Assembly (NCBI RefSeq): GCF_004364935.1
Contig: NZ_SOBT01000008.1
Location: 186,001 to 250,000, forward strand
Length of the DNA: 64,000 bases
Reading direction: 5' to 3'
Source: Panacagrimonas perspica
Lineage (GTDB): Bacteria > Pseudomonadota > Gammaproteobacteria > Nevskiales > Nevskiaceae
This document shows positions 56,863 through 62,518 of this stretch, in pieces. The notes under the pieces were generated by a model. It was not told the origin of the DNA, searched no databases, and saw only the letters and a list, made by a program, of their open reading frames with translations. How positions within the stretch are numbered: the stretch's first letter is position 1; each line of letters begins with the position of its first letter. Made by a program: the position numbers and the translations under genes.

Positions 56863-56891
56863 TTGCCGCATCGGGTGCCCGCTTCTAGAAT
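56863..56891 (+). promoter_or_regulatory. Promoter of the STAS gene
   Basis: TTGCCG (56863-56868), a 17-base spacer, TAGAAT (56886-56891). This predicts a transcript start near 56898, 29 bases before the STAS ATG. It is one of the best-spaced sigma-70 promoters I can see in the window. Confidence 0.6.
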
Positions 56892-56926
56892 CGACGCTCA
56901 TCCAGCGAGCCCGGCGGATCACGATC

Positions 56927-57301
56927 ATGGCGCTGAGTACCTCACGCTGCGCCGATGTCCTGCTTCTGCGTCCCAAGGGGCGCATCGATCACAACAATGC
57001 CGAAGAATTCGCCGATGCGGTCAAGCCGTACTTGGCGGACTGCAAGGCGGGTGGCGATTCGCTGATCTTCGATCTGTCGGAACTCGAATACATCTCGAGT
57101 GCCGGCCTGCGCGTGCTGATGCTGGTGTCGAAGAACGTCGGCCCGAATGGCGGCAAGGTCGCGTTGGCCCAGCCGCAGCGGGTGGTCGGAGAAATCCTGC
57201 AGATCAGCCGCTTCAAGTACGTGTTCCCCATTCACGACACGGTCGCGGCCGGAATCGCGGCGCTCTCGCCGGACGCCGCGGCGGCGTACGCGAGGACCTG
57301 A
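56927..57301 (+). CDS. STAS domain anti-sigma factor antagonist (RsbV-like)
   Basis: 124 residues, one STAS domain: VLLLRPKGRIDHNNAEEFADAV, DSLIFDLSELEYISSAGLRVLMLV. The phospho-acceptor position corresponds to Ser58 in ISSAGL (family consensus DSxGL). In partner switching, the unphosphorylated form releases a partner from an RsbW-type kinase, and a PP2C-type phosphatase regenerates it. Both kinase (61579) and phosphatase (58325) are encoded nearby, so this is their likely substrate. Two bases before the MBL gene. Confidence 0.93.
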   Translation: MALSTSRCADVLLLRPKGRIDHNNAEEFADAVKPYLADCKAGGDSLIFDLSELEYISSAGLRVLMLVSKNVGPNGGKVALAQPQRVVGEILQISRFKYVFPIHDTVAAGIAALSPDAAAAYART

Positions 57302-57303
57302 GC

Positions 57304-58278
57304 GTGCGGGTCCGCTTCTGGGGCACCCGGGGCTCGCTGCCGGTTGCGCTGACGGCGGCGGAGCTTCGGATGCGAATGGCGCGAGCCTTGGTTGCGGCGC
57401 GCGGCCGCAAGTTTTCCGGCCAGCGCGAGGCGGAAAGCTTTCTCGACGAACTTCCGCGCGGATGGGCGCACACCTGGGGCGGGCATTCGAGCTGCGTGCA
57501 GATCGAACTCGACGGGCCGCGCGATCAGGCGCGCGAGTTCGTGCTCTGCGATCTGGGCTCCGGCGTGCGCCGCTTCGGTCAGGAACTGCTGGCGACGCTG
57601 GGACGGGACATGCGCTGCACGTTTCATGTGTTCATGTCGCACCTGCACTGGGACCACATCATGGGGTTCCCCTTTTTCACGCCGGCTTACCTGCCGGGCA
57701 ACACGGTGCGCATCTACGGCGGTCACGCCAACCTGCGGGCCGCATTCGAACGCCAGCAGGACGCACCGTCTTTTCCGGTGCCGCTGTCGGCGCTCGGCGC
57801 GCGTCTGGAATTCGTGCAGCTGGAGCCGGATCGCCGCTACGACATCGCCGGGCTGAACGTGAAGGCAAAGCTGCAGCGGCACTCCGGCGGCTCCTACGGA
57901 TTCCGCTTCGAGCGCAATGGGCGCGCGGTGGTGTACTCGACGGATTCGGAGCACACGCTGGAGGCACGCGAGGAGATCGACGGCTTTGTCGATTTCTTCC
58001 GCGATGCGGATCTGGTGATCTTCGATGCGATGTATTCGCTGGCCGACGTGATGACGGTCAAGGCCGACTGGGGCCACTCGAGCAACGTCGTCGGCGTGGA
58101 GTTGTGCCAGCTCGCCGGTGCACGCCATCTTGCGCTGTACCACCACGAACCGATCTTCGGCGACGAGCGCATCGCCGAGATCGAGGCCGAGACGCGTCGC
58201 CTCGAAGAGATCACGCGCGCAGGGCGCTCTCCGCTCCAGGTCACGGCAGCCTGGGACGGCCTTGAAATCGAACTCTGA
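57304..58278 (+). CDS. MBL-fold metallo-hydrolase
   Basis: 324 residues. MRVRFWGTRGSLPV start, metal motif SHLHWDHIMGFPFF (His113, His115, Asp117, His118), STDSEHTLEAREEID, IFDAMYSLADV and DWGHSSN. The family contains phosphodiesterases and RNase Z-like enzymes; this subgroup is often found near sensor phosphatases and kinases. Substrate unknown. The start is GTG at 57304, two bases after the STAS stop, giving the family's FWGTRGS N-terminus. Confidence 0.9.
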   Translation: MRVRFWGTRGSLPVALTAAELRMRMARALVAARGRKFSGQREAESFLDELPRGWAHTWGGHSSCVQIELDGPRDQAREFVLCDLGSGVRRFGQELLATLGRDMRCTFHVFMSHLHWDHIMGFPFFTPAYLPGNTVRIYGGHANLRAAFERQQDAPSFPVPLSALGARLEFVQLEPDRRYDIAGLNVKAKLQRHSGGSYGFRFERNGRAVVYSTDSEHTLEAREEIDGFVDFFRDADLVIFDAMYSLADVMTVKADWGHSSNVVGVELCQLAGARHLALYHHEPIFGDERIAEIEAETRRLEEITRAGRSPLQVTAAWDGLEIEL

Positions 58279-58324
58279 GGCGCCTGCATCGCGGAGCCCC
58301 GCATCGTCCGGCAGTGGCCGCCGG

Positions 58325-60379
58325 ATGCGGATTCTCGGCGCGCTGCTCACCTGTCTGATGCTGCTGCTCCAGCATGCGGATACTGCGACGCGGCTGTCGC
58401 TTCGTTCCGAGGTGTTCGACGCCTATCAGCGCGAAGTGCCGCGCAGGCGCGGCGACGACCGCGTCATCGTGCTCGCCATCGACGATCTGAGCCTGCAGCG
58501 TCGCGGGCAGTGGCCGTGGCCGCGTTGCGATCTGGCAGACCTCGTCGACAAGCTGGCGGCGCAGCGGCCCGCGGCGATCGCCATCGACATGATCTTTGCC
58601 GAGGCGGATCGCCTGTCGCCGCGCATCCAGGCGCAGCGGCTCGAGGCGATGGGGTACGCGGCGGGAGCAAGCGCGGCCGCGAAGCTGCCGGACTGCGACC
58701 GGATCTTCGCCCAATCCGTGCGCAACGCAGGCGTGGTGCTGGGCGTGGGTGGCCTGTCCGGAGATCCGCGGCTGAAGGATCCGGTCGACTACCGCGCGCC
58801 GGTGGTCGAGATCGGCGGCGCTGCCGGGCCGTTCCTGCGGCCGTTCCCGTCGGTGTTGCGGAGTCTCGACAGCATCGATCGGGCAGCGGCCGGCCACGGC
58901 GTGCTCAACGCGGACGCCGAAGATGGCGTGGTGCGCAGCGTCCCGGCCCTGGCGGCCGTCGGCGGACACGTGATTCCCGGATTGGCGGTCGAGGTGCTGC
59001 GACAGACGTCCGACGATCCGGTGTTGCGGGCTCACGTGACCGGGCATGGCCTGTCCCAGGTCGAGGTCGCGGGCCGCGCGGTGCCGACATCGGGCGACGG
59101 CAGCTGGTGGATCCATTTTTCCGATCCGGAGCTGAGGCCGATCTTCCCGGTGATCGCATTCCTCGACGGCACGCTTCCCGCGGAGCTGATCACAGGGCGC
59201 ATCGTGCTGATCGGCGCCGCGGCCTCCGGGCTGCAGGATCGCGTCATCACGCCGCTCGGTCCGATGCCGGGCGTGTCGGTGCACGCCGAGGCGCTGGACA
59301 ACGTGTACGACGGCCGTCTGCTGTCCCGCCCTTACTGGAGCACATGGGTGGAGGCAGGACTGCTGGTCCTGCTGTGCCTGTTCTCGATCGTCGCGGTTAC
59401 TGCGCTGCGACCGCTGCACTCGGTGCTGATGTTCGGCGCCGTGCTGCTGCTCGATGCCGCGATCGGCCTTGGGGCATTCGTCTGGCGCGGCTGGCTGCTC
59501 GATGTCGGGACGCCGATGGCCGGGGCGGGCATCGTGTTCGCGATGATGCTGTCGGTCGCACTCGGACAGGCGCAGCAGCAGCGGCGAACGCTTCGCGTGG
59601 CGCTCGCGGTCTCGCGCGAGGAGCAGGCGCGCATGGACGGCGAGCTGGATGCCGCGCGACGCATCCAGAGAGGCATGCTGCCGGATCCGGCCGAGGTGCT
59701 GGCCGGCGAAAGGCGCGTGGATCTGGCCGCGCTGATGCACCCCGCGCGAACCGTCGGCGGTGATCTGTACGACTTCTTTCGGCTCGACGACGATCGCCTG
59801 TTCTTCCTGGTGGGCGACGTTTCGGGCAAGGGCCTGCCGGCGAGCCTGTTCATGGCCTTGAGCAAGGCGCTGATCAAGAACGCTGCACTCGATGCGGACG
59901 GAGATCCCGGTCGCGGGCTTTCGCAGGCGGCACGCGTGCTCGCGCTGGAGAATCCGGAATCGATGTTCGTCAGCGTGGTGGCGGGCGTGCTGAACATGAC
60001 CACCGGCGAACTCGTCTGGTGCAGCGCCGGGCACGAAGGCCCTTATCTCGTGAGCGCGGCCAAAGCGGTGGTCATGCAGCTCGTCACGGCCGGCGGTCCA
60101 CCGCTGTGCATGCTCGACGGCTTCGACTACCCGATCGAACGGATCAAGCTGAAATCCGGCGATGCGTTGTGCCTGATCACGGATGGCGTCACCGAGGCGA
60201 TGGACGCGCGCGATCGGCCGTATGGATCGGCGCGGCTCGTCGACGAGCTCGCGTCGGCCGAGTCCGGCATGGCCAGTCGCAGGATCGTGGAGCGGCTGCG
60301 CCGCGACGTGGAGAAATTTGCGTCGGGACGCGAACCTGCCGACGACCTGACGATCCTCGTCATTCGCTGGAAGCCCTGA
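58325..60379 (+). CDS. CHASE2-SpoIIE sensor serine phosphatase (RsbU-like)
   Basis: 684 residues. N-terminal hydrophobic segment (~1-20), extracytoplasmic CHASE2 domain (~25-330: DDRVIVLAIDDLSLQRRGQWPWPR, LITGRIVLIGAAASGLQDRVITPLGPMPGVSVHAEALDNV), three membrane helices (~335-425), a coiled coil (~430-465), and a PP2C-like SpoIIE phosphatase (~470-684) with metal-binding Asp in TVGGDLYDFF, GDVSGKGLPASLF, DGVTEAMD and DDLTILV. It should dephosphorylate a phosphoserine STAS protein in response to an envelope signal. The ATG at 58325 is chosen; an earlier in-frame TTG (58262) is possible. Confidence 0.92.
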   Translation: MRILGALLTCLMLLLQHADTATRLSLRSEVFDAYQREVPRRRGDDRVIVLAIDDLSLQRRGQWPWPRCDLADLVDKLAAQRPAAIAIDMIFAEADRLSPRIQAQRLEAMGYAAGASAAAKLPDCDRIFAQSVRNAGVVLGVGGLSGDPRLKDPVDYRAPVVEIGGAAGPFLRPFPSVLRSLDSIDRAAAGHGVLNADAEDGVVRSVPALAAVGGHVIPGLAVEVLRQTSDDPVLRAHVTGHGLSQVEVAGRAVPTSGDGSWWIHFSDPELRPIFPVIAFLDGTLPAELITGRIVLIGAAASGLQDRVITPLGPMPGVSVHAEALDNVYDGRLLSRPYWSTWVEAGLLVLLCLFSIVAVTALRPLHSVLMFGAVLLLDAAIGLGAFVWRGWLLDVGTPMAGAGIVFAMMLSVALGQAQQQRRTLRVALAVSREEQARMDGELDAARRIQRGMLPDPAEVLAGERRVDLAALMHPARTVGGDLYDFFRLDDDRLFFLVGDVSGKGLPASLFMALSKALIKNAALDADGDPGRGLSQAARVLALENPESMFVSVVAGVLNMTTGELVWCSAGHEGPYLVSAAKAVVMQLVTAGGPPLCMLDGFDYPIERIKLKSGDALCLITDGVTEAMDARDRPYGSARLVDELASAESGMASRRIVERLRRDVEKFASGREPADDLTILVIRWKP

Positions 60380-60400
60380 TCGCCGCCACGCGGCGCGATG

Positions 60401-60982
60401 TCAGCGCGCGTGCAGTTCGACGCGGCGATTGCGCGGCTCGTCGACGCCGTCAGGGGTGGGCACGATCGGGCTGCGCTCGCCCATGCCCGCAACGGAGATG
60501 TTGAACGCGCTGATCCCTGTTGCGATCAGGCGTGCACGCACGAGCATCGCGCGCGTCAGCGAAAGCTGGTCGTTGTGCCGCTCGCTGCCCTGCGTGTCGG
60601 AGTGGCCGACGAGCACGATCTCCACCGCCGACCGGGCCGCGAGCTCGTTGAAGATCGCCGTCGCCTCGGCCTCGGATTCGGCCGTGAGCAATGTCGAGTC
60701 GGCGCGAAAGTAGAGGTTGCGTGTGACCGGACGCGCCGGAAGGCCGGCCAGTTCGGCGTCGAATTCCTTGCGCACGTCCGCGGCCTCCAGGATGGCGCTG
60801 TCCAGGTGGCCGCGATCATCCGTATTCGCCGACGCATACGGCTCGCCGATGACGGTTTCCTGGCCGTCGCGCAGGATCGCGATCTTGCCGACACCGCCGT
60901 CGGAGTTCGGCAGCAGGATCACGCGATCGTGCGTGGCACAGCCTGCCAGCAGCACCACGAGCAGCGCCGCGCGCAGCTTCAC
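60401..60982 (-). CDS. OmpA family lipoprotein
   Basis: 193 residues. Lipoprotein signal with lipobox LLAGC (Cys15), a short N-terminal region with GGVGKIAILRDGQETVIGEPYAS, then an OmpA peptidoglycan-binding domain (~90-193: NLYFRADSTLLTAESEAEATAIF, EIVLVGHSDTQGSERHNDQLSLTRAMLV, DEPRNRRVELHAR). Lies in the outer membrane. Convergent with the phosphatase gene, 21 bases apart. With the FecR gene 22 bases upstream on the same strand it forms a two-gene unit that may sense or anchor envelope components for the CHASE2 system. Confidence 0.93.
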   Translation of the reverse strand: MKLRAALLVVLLAGCATHDRVILLPNSDGGVGKIAILRDGQETVIGEPYASANTDDRGHLDSAILEAADVRKEFDAELAGLPARPVTRNLYFRADSTLLTAESEAEATAIFNELAARSAVEIVLVGHSDTQGSERHNDQLSLTRAMLVRARLIATGISAFNISVAGMGERSPIVPTPDGVDEPRNRRVELHAR

Positions 60983-61004
60983 GGAACGCGATCCGCGAGC
61001 GGCT

Positions 61005-61457
61005 TCACCGGCCCGCCTCGACGACGAACTCGGTTCCGCGTACGCCGAGCAGCGACGTGGGCGTGCGTACCTTCATCGCGTCGATCTGCGACTTGGCGAT
61101 CTTGCCGGAGACCACCGCCATGCGGCCCTTGGACAGCGTGCTCTGGAACTCGCCGCCGTTCGATGTGCGGTCGAACCGGAAGCGATCGATGACGAAGCGG
61201 CTGCGGGCGCCCAGCGAGATCAGCGTGTTGTCCGCGAAGGTCAGGCCGGCCGAACCATCCGAGCCGGTGACGATCGTGTCCTCCTGCAGCAGGGCGGTGC
61301 CGACCGCGACCGGAAGTTCGCGGCCGCCGCGCTGGATGCGGACGTCGCCCTTGAGCGATTTGACGGTGGCGACACCGTCGATGACCGCAGCCGCCGGAAC
61401 AACGGATCCGGCCAGGCACAGGGCCAGCAGCAGACGGGCGAGGGAGGGCAGGGTCAT
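61005..61457 (-). CDS. Secreted FecR-domain protein
   Basis: 150 residues. Signal peptide ~1-24 (LCLAGSVVPAAA) and one FecR domain: VKSLKGDVRIQRGGRELPVAVGTALLQEDTIVTGSDGSAGLTFADNTLISLGARSRFVIDRF, then TPTSLLGVRGTEFVVEAGR, the C-terminal signature. It has no anti-sigma tail or TonB-box region. Such isolated FecR proteins are found beside CHASE2 sensor genes. Divergent from the RsbW-like gene across 121 bases. Confidence 0.9.
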   Translation of the reverse strand: MTLPSLARLLLALCLAGSVVPAAAVIDGVATVKSLKGDVRIQRGGRELPVAVGTALLQEDTIVTGSDGSAGLTFADNTLISLGARSRFVIDRFRFDRTSNGGEFQSTLSKGRMAVVSGKIAKSQIDAMKVRTPTSLLGVRGTEFVVEAGR

Positions 61458-61578
61458 GAGAGGCGTAGGCGCGTGGGCAGCGCCCGCATCATAATCCCGG
61501 CCCTGCGTAGCGGGCCGTTTGCCGTAAAGGAAATCGGGCCGTCGCGCGCCGCACCCGCCCCTCCCGCTTTCCCGGTGC

Positions 61579-61989
61579 ATGGCCGACTTTCCCGCCCGAC
61601 TCGATGAGCTGACCGCAGTGCTCGCCTTCGTCGAGCGCCGCAGCGGAGAACTGGGCACGTCACGCGACGTCGCACTGCGGGCTGCCCTGATCGCCGAAGA
61701 GCTTTTCGTGAACTGCCTGCGTCACGGCCTGGCGCCCGAACGAAGCCGGGTGCGGATCGAACTCCAGTGTGTCGACGGCGAGCTCGAACTCGGTTTCGAG
61801 GACGAGGGCCTTGCGTTCGACCCGTTCACGCGACCCCTGGCGGACGCACCTCATCTCAGGCCGCCGCACGAACGTCCGATCGGCGGGCTGGGGGTGGTGC
61901 TGGTCGACAGCTTCGCGCTGCGCCGTGATTACCGCCGTCTGGATGCGCGCAACTGCGTGCGCATCTGGCTCCCCGCCGGCACGGCCTGA
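61579..61989 (+). CDS. RsbW-like anti-sigma serine kinase (HATPase)
   Basis: 136 residues. GHKL ATPase fold: N-box EELFVNCLRHG, G1-type block FEDEGLAFDPF, G2-type IGGLGVVLVDSFA. Small HATPase proteins of this kind phosphorylate STAS proteins and bind sigma factors or other partners. It lies 4.3 kb from the STAS gene and 1.2 kb past the phosphatase. No sigma factor is in this window, so the output target is unknown. Confidence 0.92.
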   Translation: MADFPARLDELTAVLAFVERRSGELGTSRDVALRAALIAEELFVNCLRHGLAPERSRVRIELQCVDGELELGFEDEGLAFDPFTRPLADAPHLRPPHERPIGGLGVVLVDSFALRRDYRRLDARNCVRIWLPAGTA

Positions 61990-62173
61990 GCCGGAACGCG
62001 CTGCCGTCCAGGCGGCTGGCGGCACCCTTGATCGACTCGTCGGACCTGTTCCGCCGCTGACCCGACGGGGACGGCACCCGACTTGCAGCTTGCGCTCCAG
62101 TAGACGCGCGACGACGGCCTTCCGGCACCAAGGGGTCGCCGCGCGGCGCAACGCGAAGAGGGTGGGGACCGAC

Positions 62174-62518
62174 ATGATCAACTGGGTTATCGCAGGGGCA
62201 CTGATGGCCGTATTGCTGGCCGAACTCGTGGACGCCTGGGCGTTGCGCCAGCTCACGCTTCAGTGCCTGGGCATGCGTCCGCGCTCGCAGGCCGAGCTGC
62301 GGCAGATCCGCTGGTACGCCGAGGGCTTCGACCATTCCATCGCGGTCACGTCGTGGCTGTTCGGCGGCAGCCTGTTGCTCGCCGCGGTGGCGGGTGCGTG
62401 CAGCGCTCACCCCCTGGTCATCGGCGCCTGTCTGTTGCTGGCGCTGGGGGCGGCCGGCGAGCGCGGTTTCAGTGCTCACCTGCGCCGACGCGTGCGCAGC
62501 GTGCGGCCGGTGCGCTGA
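62174..62518 (+). CDS. Small membrane protein of unknown function
   Basis: 114 residues; no family recognised. Three hydrophobic segments (MINWVIAGALMAVLLAELV; SIAVTSWLFGGSLLLAAVAGAC; LVIGACLLLALGAAG), basic C-terminus (HLRRRVRSVRPVR). The ATG at 62174 is preceded by a GAGGGTGGGGACC ribosome-binding-like run. Follows the RsbW gene by 184 bases that contain nothing recognisable. Confidence 0.7.
   Translation: MINWVIAGALMAVLLAELVDAWALRQLTLQCLGMRPRSQAELRQIRWYAEGFDHSIAVTSWLFGGSLLLAAVAGACSAHPLVIGACLLLALGAAGERGFSAHLRRRVRSVRPVR

Follow-up and report, generated by a model that had tools for sequence, protein, structure and literature searches.

The described systems closest to the six-gene block considered here are the RsbU-RsbV-RsbW and SpoIIE-SpoIIAA-SpoIIAB partner switches. 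The block lies at positions 56863-61989 of a 64,000-nucleotide stretch of the Panacagrimonas perspica genome (contig NZ_SOBT01000008.1, positions 186,001 to 250,000; that whole stretch is referred to below as the window). Like these switches, it encodes a PP2C phosphatase, a STAS-domain protein with the phospho-serine position, and a HATPase_c_2 kinase carrying the N and G boxes. Unlike them, it contains no SigB/F/G-type sigma factor, and it adds a CHASE2 receptor on the phosphatase, a FecR-OmpA pair, and a metallo-β-lactamase (MBL)-fold hydrolase. Since no such sigma factor occurs in the block, and none exceeds the TIGR02980 cut-off genome-wide in a survey with the SigB/F/G-type profile (extracytoplasmic function, or ECF, sigma factors fall outside it), we class the block as working like RsbU/V/W and not as a sigma-B pathway.

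Partner switching without an identifiable sigma factor is known from proteobacteria. RbaV-RbaW-RbaY of Rhodobacter capsulatus is a switch for which no cognate sigma factor was found, and the abstract and outline of its description mention no CHASE2, FecR, OmpA or MBL partner (PMC3999984). Pseudomonas SiaABCD also combines a PP2C phosphatase, a kinase, a STAS-like protein and an enzyme without a sigma factor (PMC7647112, PMC8457831), and the SiaA PP2C domain is among the folds nearest to that of the window phosphatase. However, in the Sia system a diguanylate cyclase serves as output and T68 is the phosphorylated residue of SiaC, whereas the enzyme in our block is a separable MBL hydrolase; no GGDEF diguanylate cyclase is encoded among the block's six genes, and the window phosphatase scores 41.5 bits against the SiaA equivalog NF038263, below its cut-off of 700.

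On the sensory side, the Burkholderia BiofilmReg operon (PMC5192318) and a Campylobacterota cluster (PMC9239204) likewise pair a CHASE2 receptor with a FecR-domain envelope protein. The latter consists of a CHASE2-adenylate cyclase, a phosphodiesterase acting on cAMP, FecR, and a tetratricopeptide repeat (TPR) protein (PMC9239204). The outputs of these clusters are histidine kinases or cyclases and their partners are LysM-FecR or TPR proteins, whereas the block has a SpoIIE/PP2C output, a stand-alone FecR protein and an OmpA lipoprotein; no STAS/RsbW set is described in the published clusters (PMC5192318, PMC9239204). The block also differs from FecI-FecR-FecA, in that its FecR protein does not combine a cytoplasmic anti-sigma region with a transmembrane helix and its neighbors encode an OmpA lipoprotein and a kinase, not FecI and FecA.

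We read the block as an envelope-sensing partner switch whose client would be encoded elsewhere, unlinked to it, and put the probability of this reading at about 0.68.

Gene Content and Organization

The block comprises the following features, which an earlier reading of the sequence alone (the sequence-only reading) had already assigned to six genes on these strands:

56863-56891, plus strand: promoter-like site TTGCCG-17-TAGAAT ahead of the STAS-MBL-phosphatase run, with 9 of 12 matches
56927-57301, plus strand: STAS-domain antagonist, 124 aa (PF01740, 1.9e-17; TIGR00377 over cut-off)
57304-58278, plus strand: MBL-fold hydrolase of the RNase Z/class-II phosphodiesterase group, 324 aa (PF12706, Lactamase_B_2, 4.8e-17)
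58262-60379, plus strand: receptor phosphatase with CHASE2, transmembrane helices, signaling helix and SpoIIE/PP2C domain (CHASE2, 9.5e-48; SpoIIE, PF07228, 2.2e-45)
60401-60982, minus strand: OmpA-family lipoprotein, 193 aa (PF00691, 1.5e-16; lipobox LAGC and signal read in the sequence)
61005-61457, minus strand: secreted FecR-domain protein, 150 aa (PF04773, 2.8e-13; block-specific family alignment), first gene of the FecR-OmpA pair
61458-61578, no strand: divergent intergenic region between fecR (minus) and the kinase gene (plus), holding CATCATAAT, a possible fecR -10 element on the minus strand
61579-61989, plus strand: RsbW/SpoIIAB-type HATPase_c_2 kinase, 136 aa (PF13581, 1.3e-15)

All six proteins exceed the Pfam gathering cut-off of their own family (STAS, Lactamase_B_2, CHASE2 and SpoIIE, OmpA, FecR, HATPase_c_2), and the open reading frames and intact catalytic residues bear out the assignments. 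The MBL gene starts at a GTG at 57304, 2 nt past the STAS stop codon, while the phosphatase start is ambiguous, being either a TTG at 58262 that overlaps the MBL gene or an ATG at 58325. The promoter proposed for the plus-strand run also stands: it is the sole promoter-like site in the 9-kb region scanned (0.5 expected by chance), and its TTG and TAGAAT are found upstream of STAS in another genome of the same genus (G811), where the remaining upstream region has diverged. CATCATAAT recurs upstream of fecR in that genome as well. Beyond the kinase gene, at 62162-62518 of the window, lies a gene for a 118-aa predicted membrane protein without a Pfam match, a relative of which is found at the equivalent place in G811.

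The Switch Core

The claims that phosphatase, kinase and antagonist form a complete set, and that no sigma factor accompanies them in the block, were both confirmed, the former by family matches and by conservation of catalytic and phospho-site residues. In the STAS protein, whose nearest solved structures are anti-sigma-factor antagonists, S57 is invariant and S58 nearly so; a serine occupies the position of SpoIIAA S58 in 27 of 28 homologues, and S58 is the predicted phospho-site. The PP2C metal-binding aspartates of the phosphatase (D501, D519, D641, D694/D695) are invariant across 24 sequences. Its AlphaFold2 model (mean predicted local distance difference test score, pLDDT, 89) contains CHASE2, the transmembrane helices, and an unbroken helix at residues 416-471 that runs into the PP2C domain; the PDB folds nearest to the PP2C part are those of Rv1364c (RsbU domain), RssB and SiaA, and the 50 top-ranked PDB matches listed for the model contain no structure of a CHASE2 domain. 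In the kinase, N- and G-box residues (E41/N45, D75, G102, G105) are invariant in the homologue alignment, and its nearest solved relatives are RsbW (6m36) and SpoIIAB.

The genome, of 5.4 Mb, probably has no complete partner switch other than the block. Genome-wide, the SpoIIE profile gave one full-length match (the block phosphatase) and two partial ones, the HATPase_c_2 profile gave one short-frame match (the block kinase) with the rest in frames of about 400-900 residues, and the STAS profile gave three, the two outside the block being in longer frames; all matches outside the block were classed by frame length alone.

Distribution and Co-conservation

The survey that the sequence-only reading had called for, asking whether the six genes are conserved together, had a positive outcome. 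The complete block occurs within a few kb in 16 loci besides the window, from at least two proteobacterial classes: L001 (a betaproteobacterial metagenome-assembled genome), L051, L052, L054, L055 (counted as complete although a contig end cuts its STAS gene), L061, L087-L092, L109, L110, L117 and L118. Because all six genes are found together in these 16 other loci, their co-occurrence exceeds chance. Gene order is the same in 14 of 17 loci, the exceptions being an inverted OmpA-FecR-kinase unit in L051 and L055 and a moved kinase gene in L118; the blocks of L087 and L090 contain inserted genes. Pairwise distances among the six proteins are correlated (r 0.73-0.92, 16 loci). Because the MBL was the main seed of the survey, the count of five-gene forms lacking it is too low (FecR led to G811), and the stretches from the surveyed genomes were gene-called with a simple script that may miss small genes.

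Within the window's order the distribution is patchy: a close MBL (at least 56% identity) is present in 7 of 85 genomes, and all 7 carry the block. The MBL of L092, whose genome belongs to the window's family, clusters with MBLs from a different class, and this placement suggests horizontal transfer. Genome contigs scanned with a single protein gave one locus. Searches of plasmids returned only CHASE2 proteins, phosphatases standing alone and distantly related MBLs, and text searches of a collection of open-access papers (CHASE2 with SpoIIE/STAS, PP2C or FecR; HATPase/STAS/FecR/PP2C/OmpA) returned no description of the block. Variants were also seen: in L117 (6984-7944, genome G930) two tandem STAS genes precede the MBL gene in an otherwise complete block, and in L115 (3339-7653, G1142) the CHASE2-phosphatase coding region seems to be in two parts about 2.3 kb apart.

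Two Separable Units

The block divides into two units, one being STAS(-MBL)-phosphatase and the other FecR(-OmpA) head-to-head with the kinase gene. The FecR/kinase unit is inverted or relocated in eight genomes, and its head-to-head arrangement is retained in many. In G731, about 390 kb of a single contig separate STAS-MBL-phosphatase from OmpA-FecR-kinase; the latter unit is also found away from the phosphatase in G1065 and G1142, as is a FecR-kinase pair without OmpA in G1119, G1033 and G931. Exceptions to this pattern are L118, where the kinase gene adjoins STAS, L121, a stretch without the kinase, G929 and G1031, which have FecR-OmpA without a nearby kinase, and L119 (5342-7195, G1153), where STAS, MBL and RsbW-like kinase genes are adjacent and the stretch has no CHASE2-phosphatase gene.

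Such separability, together with the coming and going of the MBL, could mean that two neighboring units have merely been inherited or transferred together without a common function. We regard this as very improbable, given that phosphatase, STAS protein and kinase are three obligate parts of one type of switch in a genome without obvious alternative partners, that several genomes with split units still hold both, and that gene order is so widely preserved.

A Likely Envelope Input

The sequence-only reading had proposed that the envelope proteins could feed the CHASE2 domain. Of 18 non-block CHASE2 loci, 7 have a FecR gene no more than 3 kb away (0.12 expected), whereas the 16 SpoIIE-only loci have none (Fisher p = 0.008; the loci were picked by similarity to the window phosphatase and are not a random sample). 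FecR and OmpA genes directly adjoin a CHASE2-histidine kinase gene in L161 and a CHASE2-histidine kinase-receiver gene in L072, and lie about 2 kb or less from a CHASE2-guanylate cyclase gene in L068. FecR thus tracks the CHASE2 domain and not the phosphatase domain, being found near CHASE2 loci with other outputs and at none of the SpoIIE-only loci. Since FecR adjoins CHASE2 genes with cyclase or histidine kinase outputs too, the predicted input from the envelope to CHASE2 via FecR/OmpA is well supported, though not proven; the association beyond chance and the published clusters make the proposal a likely one. Both the OmpA lipoprotein and the FecR protein have an N-terminal hydrophobic segment, and the former is probably peptidoglycan-associated. 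A role for FecR as an anti-sigma factor was rejected from its architecture, as it is a 150-aa secreted protein in which the FecR domain is the sole match. In L016 (1-2635, G365), a CHASE2-guanylate cyclase gene is directly followed by an MBL gene resembling a phosphodiesterase, an arrangement that recalls the Campylobacterota cyclase/phosphodiesterase/FecR cluster.

The MBL Enzyme

The MBL shares its fold and HxHxDH di-metal motif with the phosphodiesterases YhfI, Rv1339 and Apyc1 and with RNase Z and PhnP. Its HxHxDH motif, H193, D214, H258 and H280/H281 (di-metal ligands) are invariant in the homologue alignment, and the PDB folds nearest to its AlphaFold2 model (pLDDT 86) are RNase Z, YhfI, PhnP, Apyc1 and PDE1. 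It differs in a helical insertion of about 45 residues past an N-terminal RFWGTRGS motif and in profile scores of 39 and 47 bits, which fall well short of the equivalog cut-offs for RNase Z and cyclic-nucleotide phosphodiesterases (400 and 293). Judged from the modeled fold, the MBL is likely a phosphodiesterase.

The MBL could be the direct output of the switch. In such a scheme the dephosphorylated STAS protein would bind and control it, as SiaC does with SiaD, and so toggle a phosphodiesterase that sets a cyclic-nucleotide or RNA-derived pool; an envelope signal arriving via FecR, OmpA and CHASE2 would then set a cyclic-nucleotide pool by protein phosphorylation. The STAS and MBL genes overlap or lie no more than 30 nt apart in 24 of 28 loci and stay paired without the phosphatase in L119, YhfI, among the nearest folds, prefers cAMP/cGMP (PMC9117128), and activation of an enzyme by a STAS-like protein is established for SiaC-SiaD (PMC8457831). 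Natural gene losses nonetheless make this scheme doubtful. G811 has the STAS, phosphatase, OmpA, FecR and kinase genes at 56-74% identity with the same downstream flanks, only 7 nt separate its STAS and phosphatase genes, and its genome has no MBL match at E 1e-30. Conversely, seven species of genus g275 retain an MBL gene with none of the switch genes linked to it, next to the genes that flank the complete block in G372, G373 and G375. These stand-alone MBLs fall into a single clade within the block MBLs (support 100/98) and are under strong purifying selection (ratio of nonsynonymous to synonymous substitution rates 0.03-0.09). In their genomes FecR matches are weak and not of the block type; for the kinase, STAS and phosphatase genes, the absence refers to the MBL locus. 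The most straightforward account is that the linked switch genes were lost and the MBL retained by selection.

The MBL is thus separable from, and dispensable to, the switch: its absence from the five-gene block of G811 and the stand-alone clade rule it out as an obligatory component, and the idea that it is an integral new part of the system is not supported in that form. That the stand-alone enzymes are unrelated paralogues is excluded by their nesting among block MBLs and by the flanking genes they share with the block. In genus g275 the MBL gene is followed by one for a protein of 132-134 aa (L051 7693-8091, L055 1137-1535, L050, L053, L058, L060), which four species retain alongside the stand-alone MBL; Pfam gave no match for the L051 copy.

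Sigma Factors, the Client, and a Model for the Switch

A conventional sigma switch acting in trans is a further alternative, with the kinase as anti-sigma factor for a resident RpoS-, RpoH- or ECF-type sigma factor encoded elsewhere. Among solved structures the kinase is nearest RsbW/SpoIIAB and the STAS protein nearest anti-sigma antagonists, four sub-threshold sigma-70-type matches are present in the genome, and a Shewanella partner switch controlling sigma-S is cited in a review (PMC8256260). Set against these are the lack of a sigma gene in the block or recurrently nearby, the lack of any over the SigB/F/G cut-off, and the precedent of Rhodobacter RbaVWY, where searches for a cognate sigma factor were unsuccessful and the role of output was assigned to RbaV (PMC3999984). 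We therefore consider sigma control in trans unlikely.

An envelope-sensing partner switch with an unlinked client remains our preferred reading, and several observations weigh against it. The kinase is the most divergent protein of the set (mean column identity 35%), and the correlated distances among the six proteins partly reflect shared species history. FecR is linked as strongly to the kinase gene as to the CHASE2-phosphatase gene and might therefore be connected with the phosphatase only indirectly. Lastly, no extra neighbor gene that could be the client, sigma genes included, was found to recur across the block loci, which speaks against a client hidden beside the block.

The direction of signaling and the chemistry in our model are borrowed from the RsbU/V/W family. 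The secreted FecR protein, together with the OmpA lipoprotein, would report the state of the envelope to the periplasmic CHASE2 domain, and the resulting change would travel via the transmembrane helices and the continuous signaling helix to the PP2C domain, which would dephosphorylate the STAS protein at S58. Dephosphorylated STAS protein would then bind the RsbW-like kinase, freeing or altering the kinase's unlinked client, or might itself be the output. Re-phosphorylation of the STAS protein by the kinase would reset the switch. The MBL, co-expressed with the STAS protein, would probably serve as a phosphodiesterase in the same response without being needed for the switch.

Implications

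Partner switches for which no sigma factor is known have been described in a few proteobacteria, with inputs and clients assigned for only a minority. If STAS control of the MBL were true, it would couple a partner switch to the breakdown of a second messenger, with the same sensor module driving a CHASE2 cyclase elsewhere. The natural deletions (a switch without the MBL in G811, an MBL without the linked switch in seven species) offer a direct way to test what each part does. The FecR-OmpA-CHASE2 sensor module is joined to three kinds of output, namely cyclase, histidine kinase and PP2C switch, and the P. perspica block is a compact, recurrently conserved example of a switch for which no sigma factor is known, with a likely envelope input attached.

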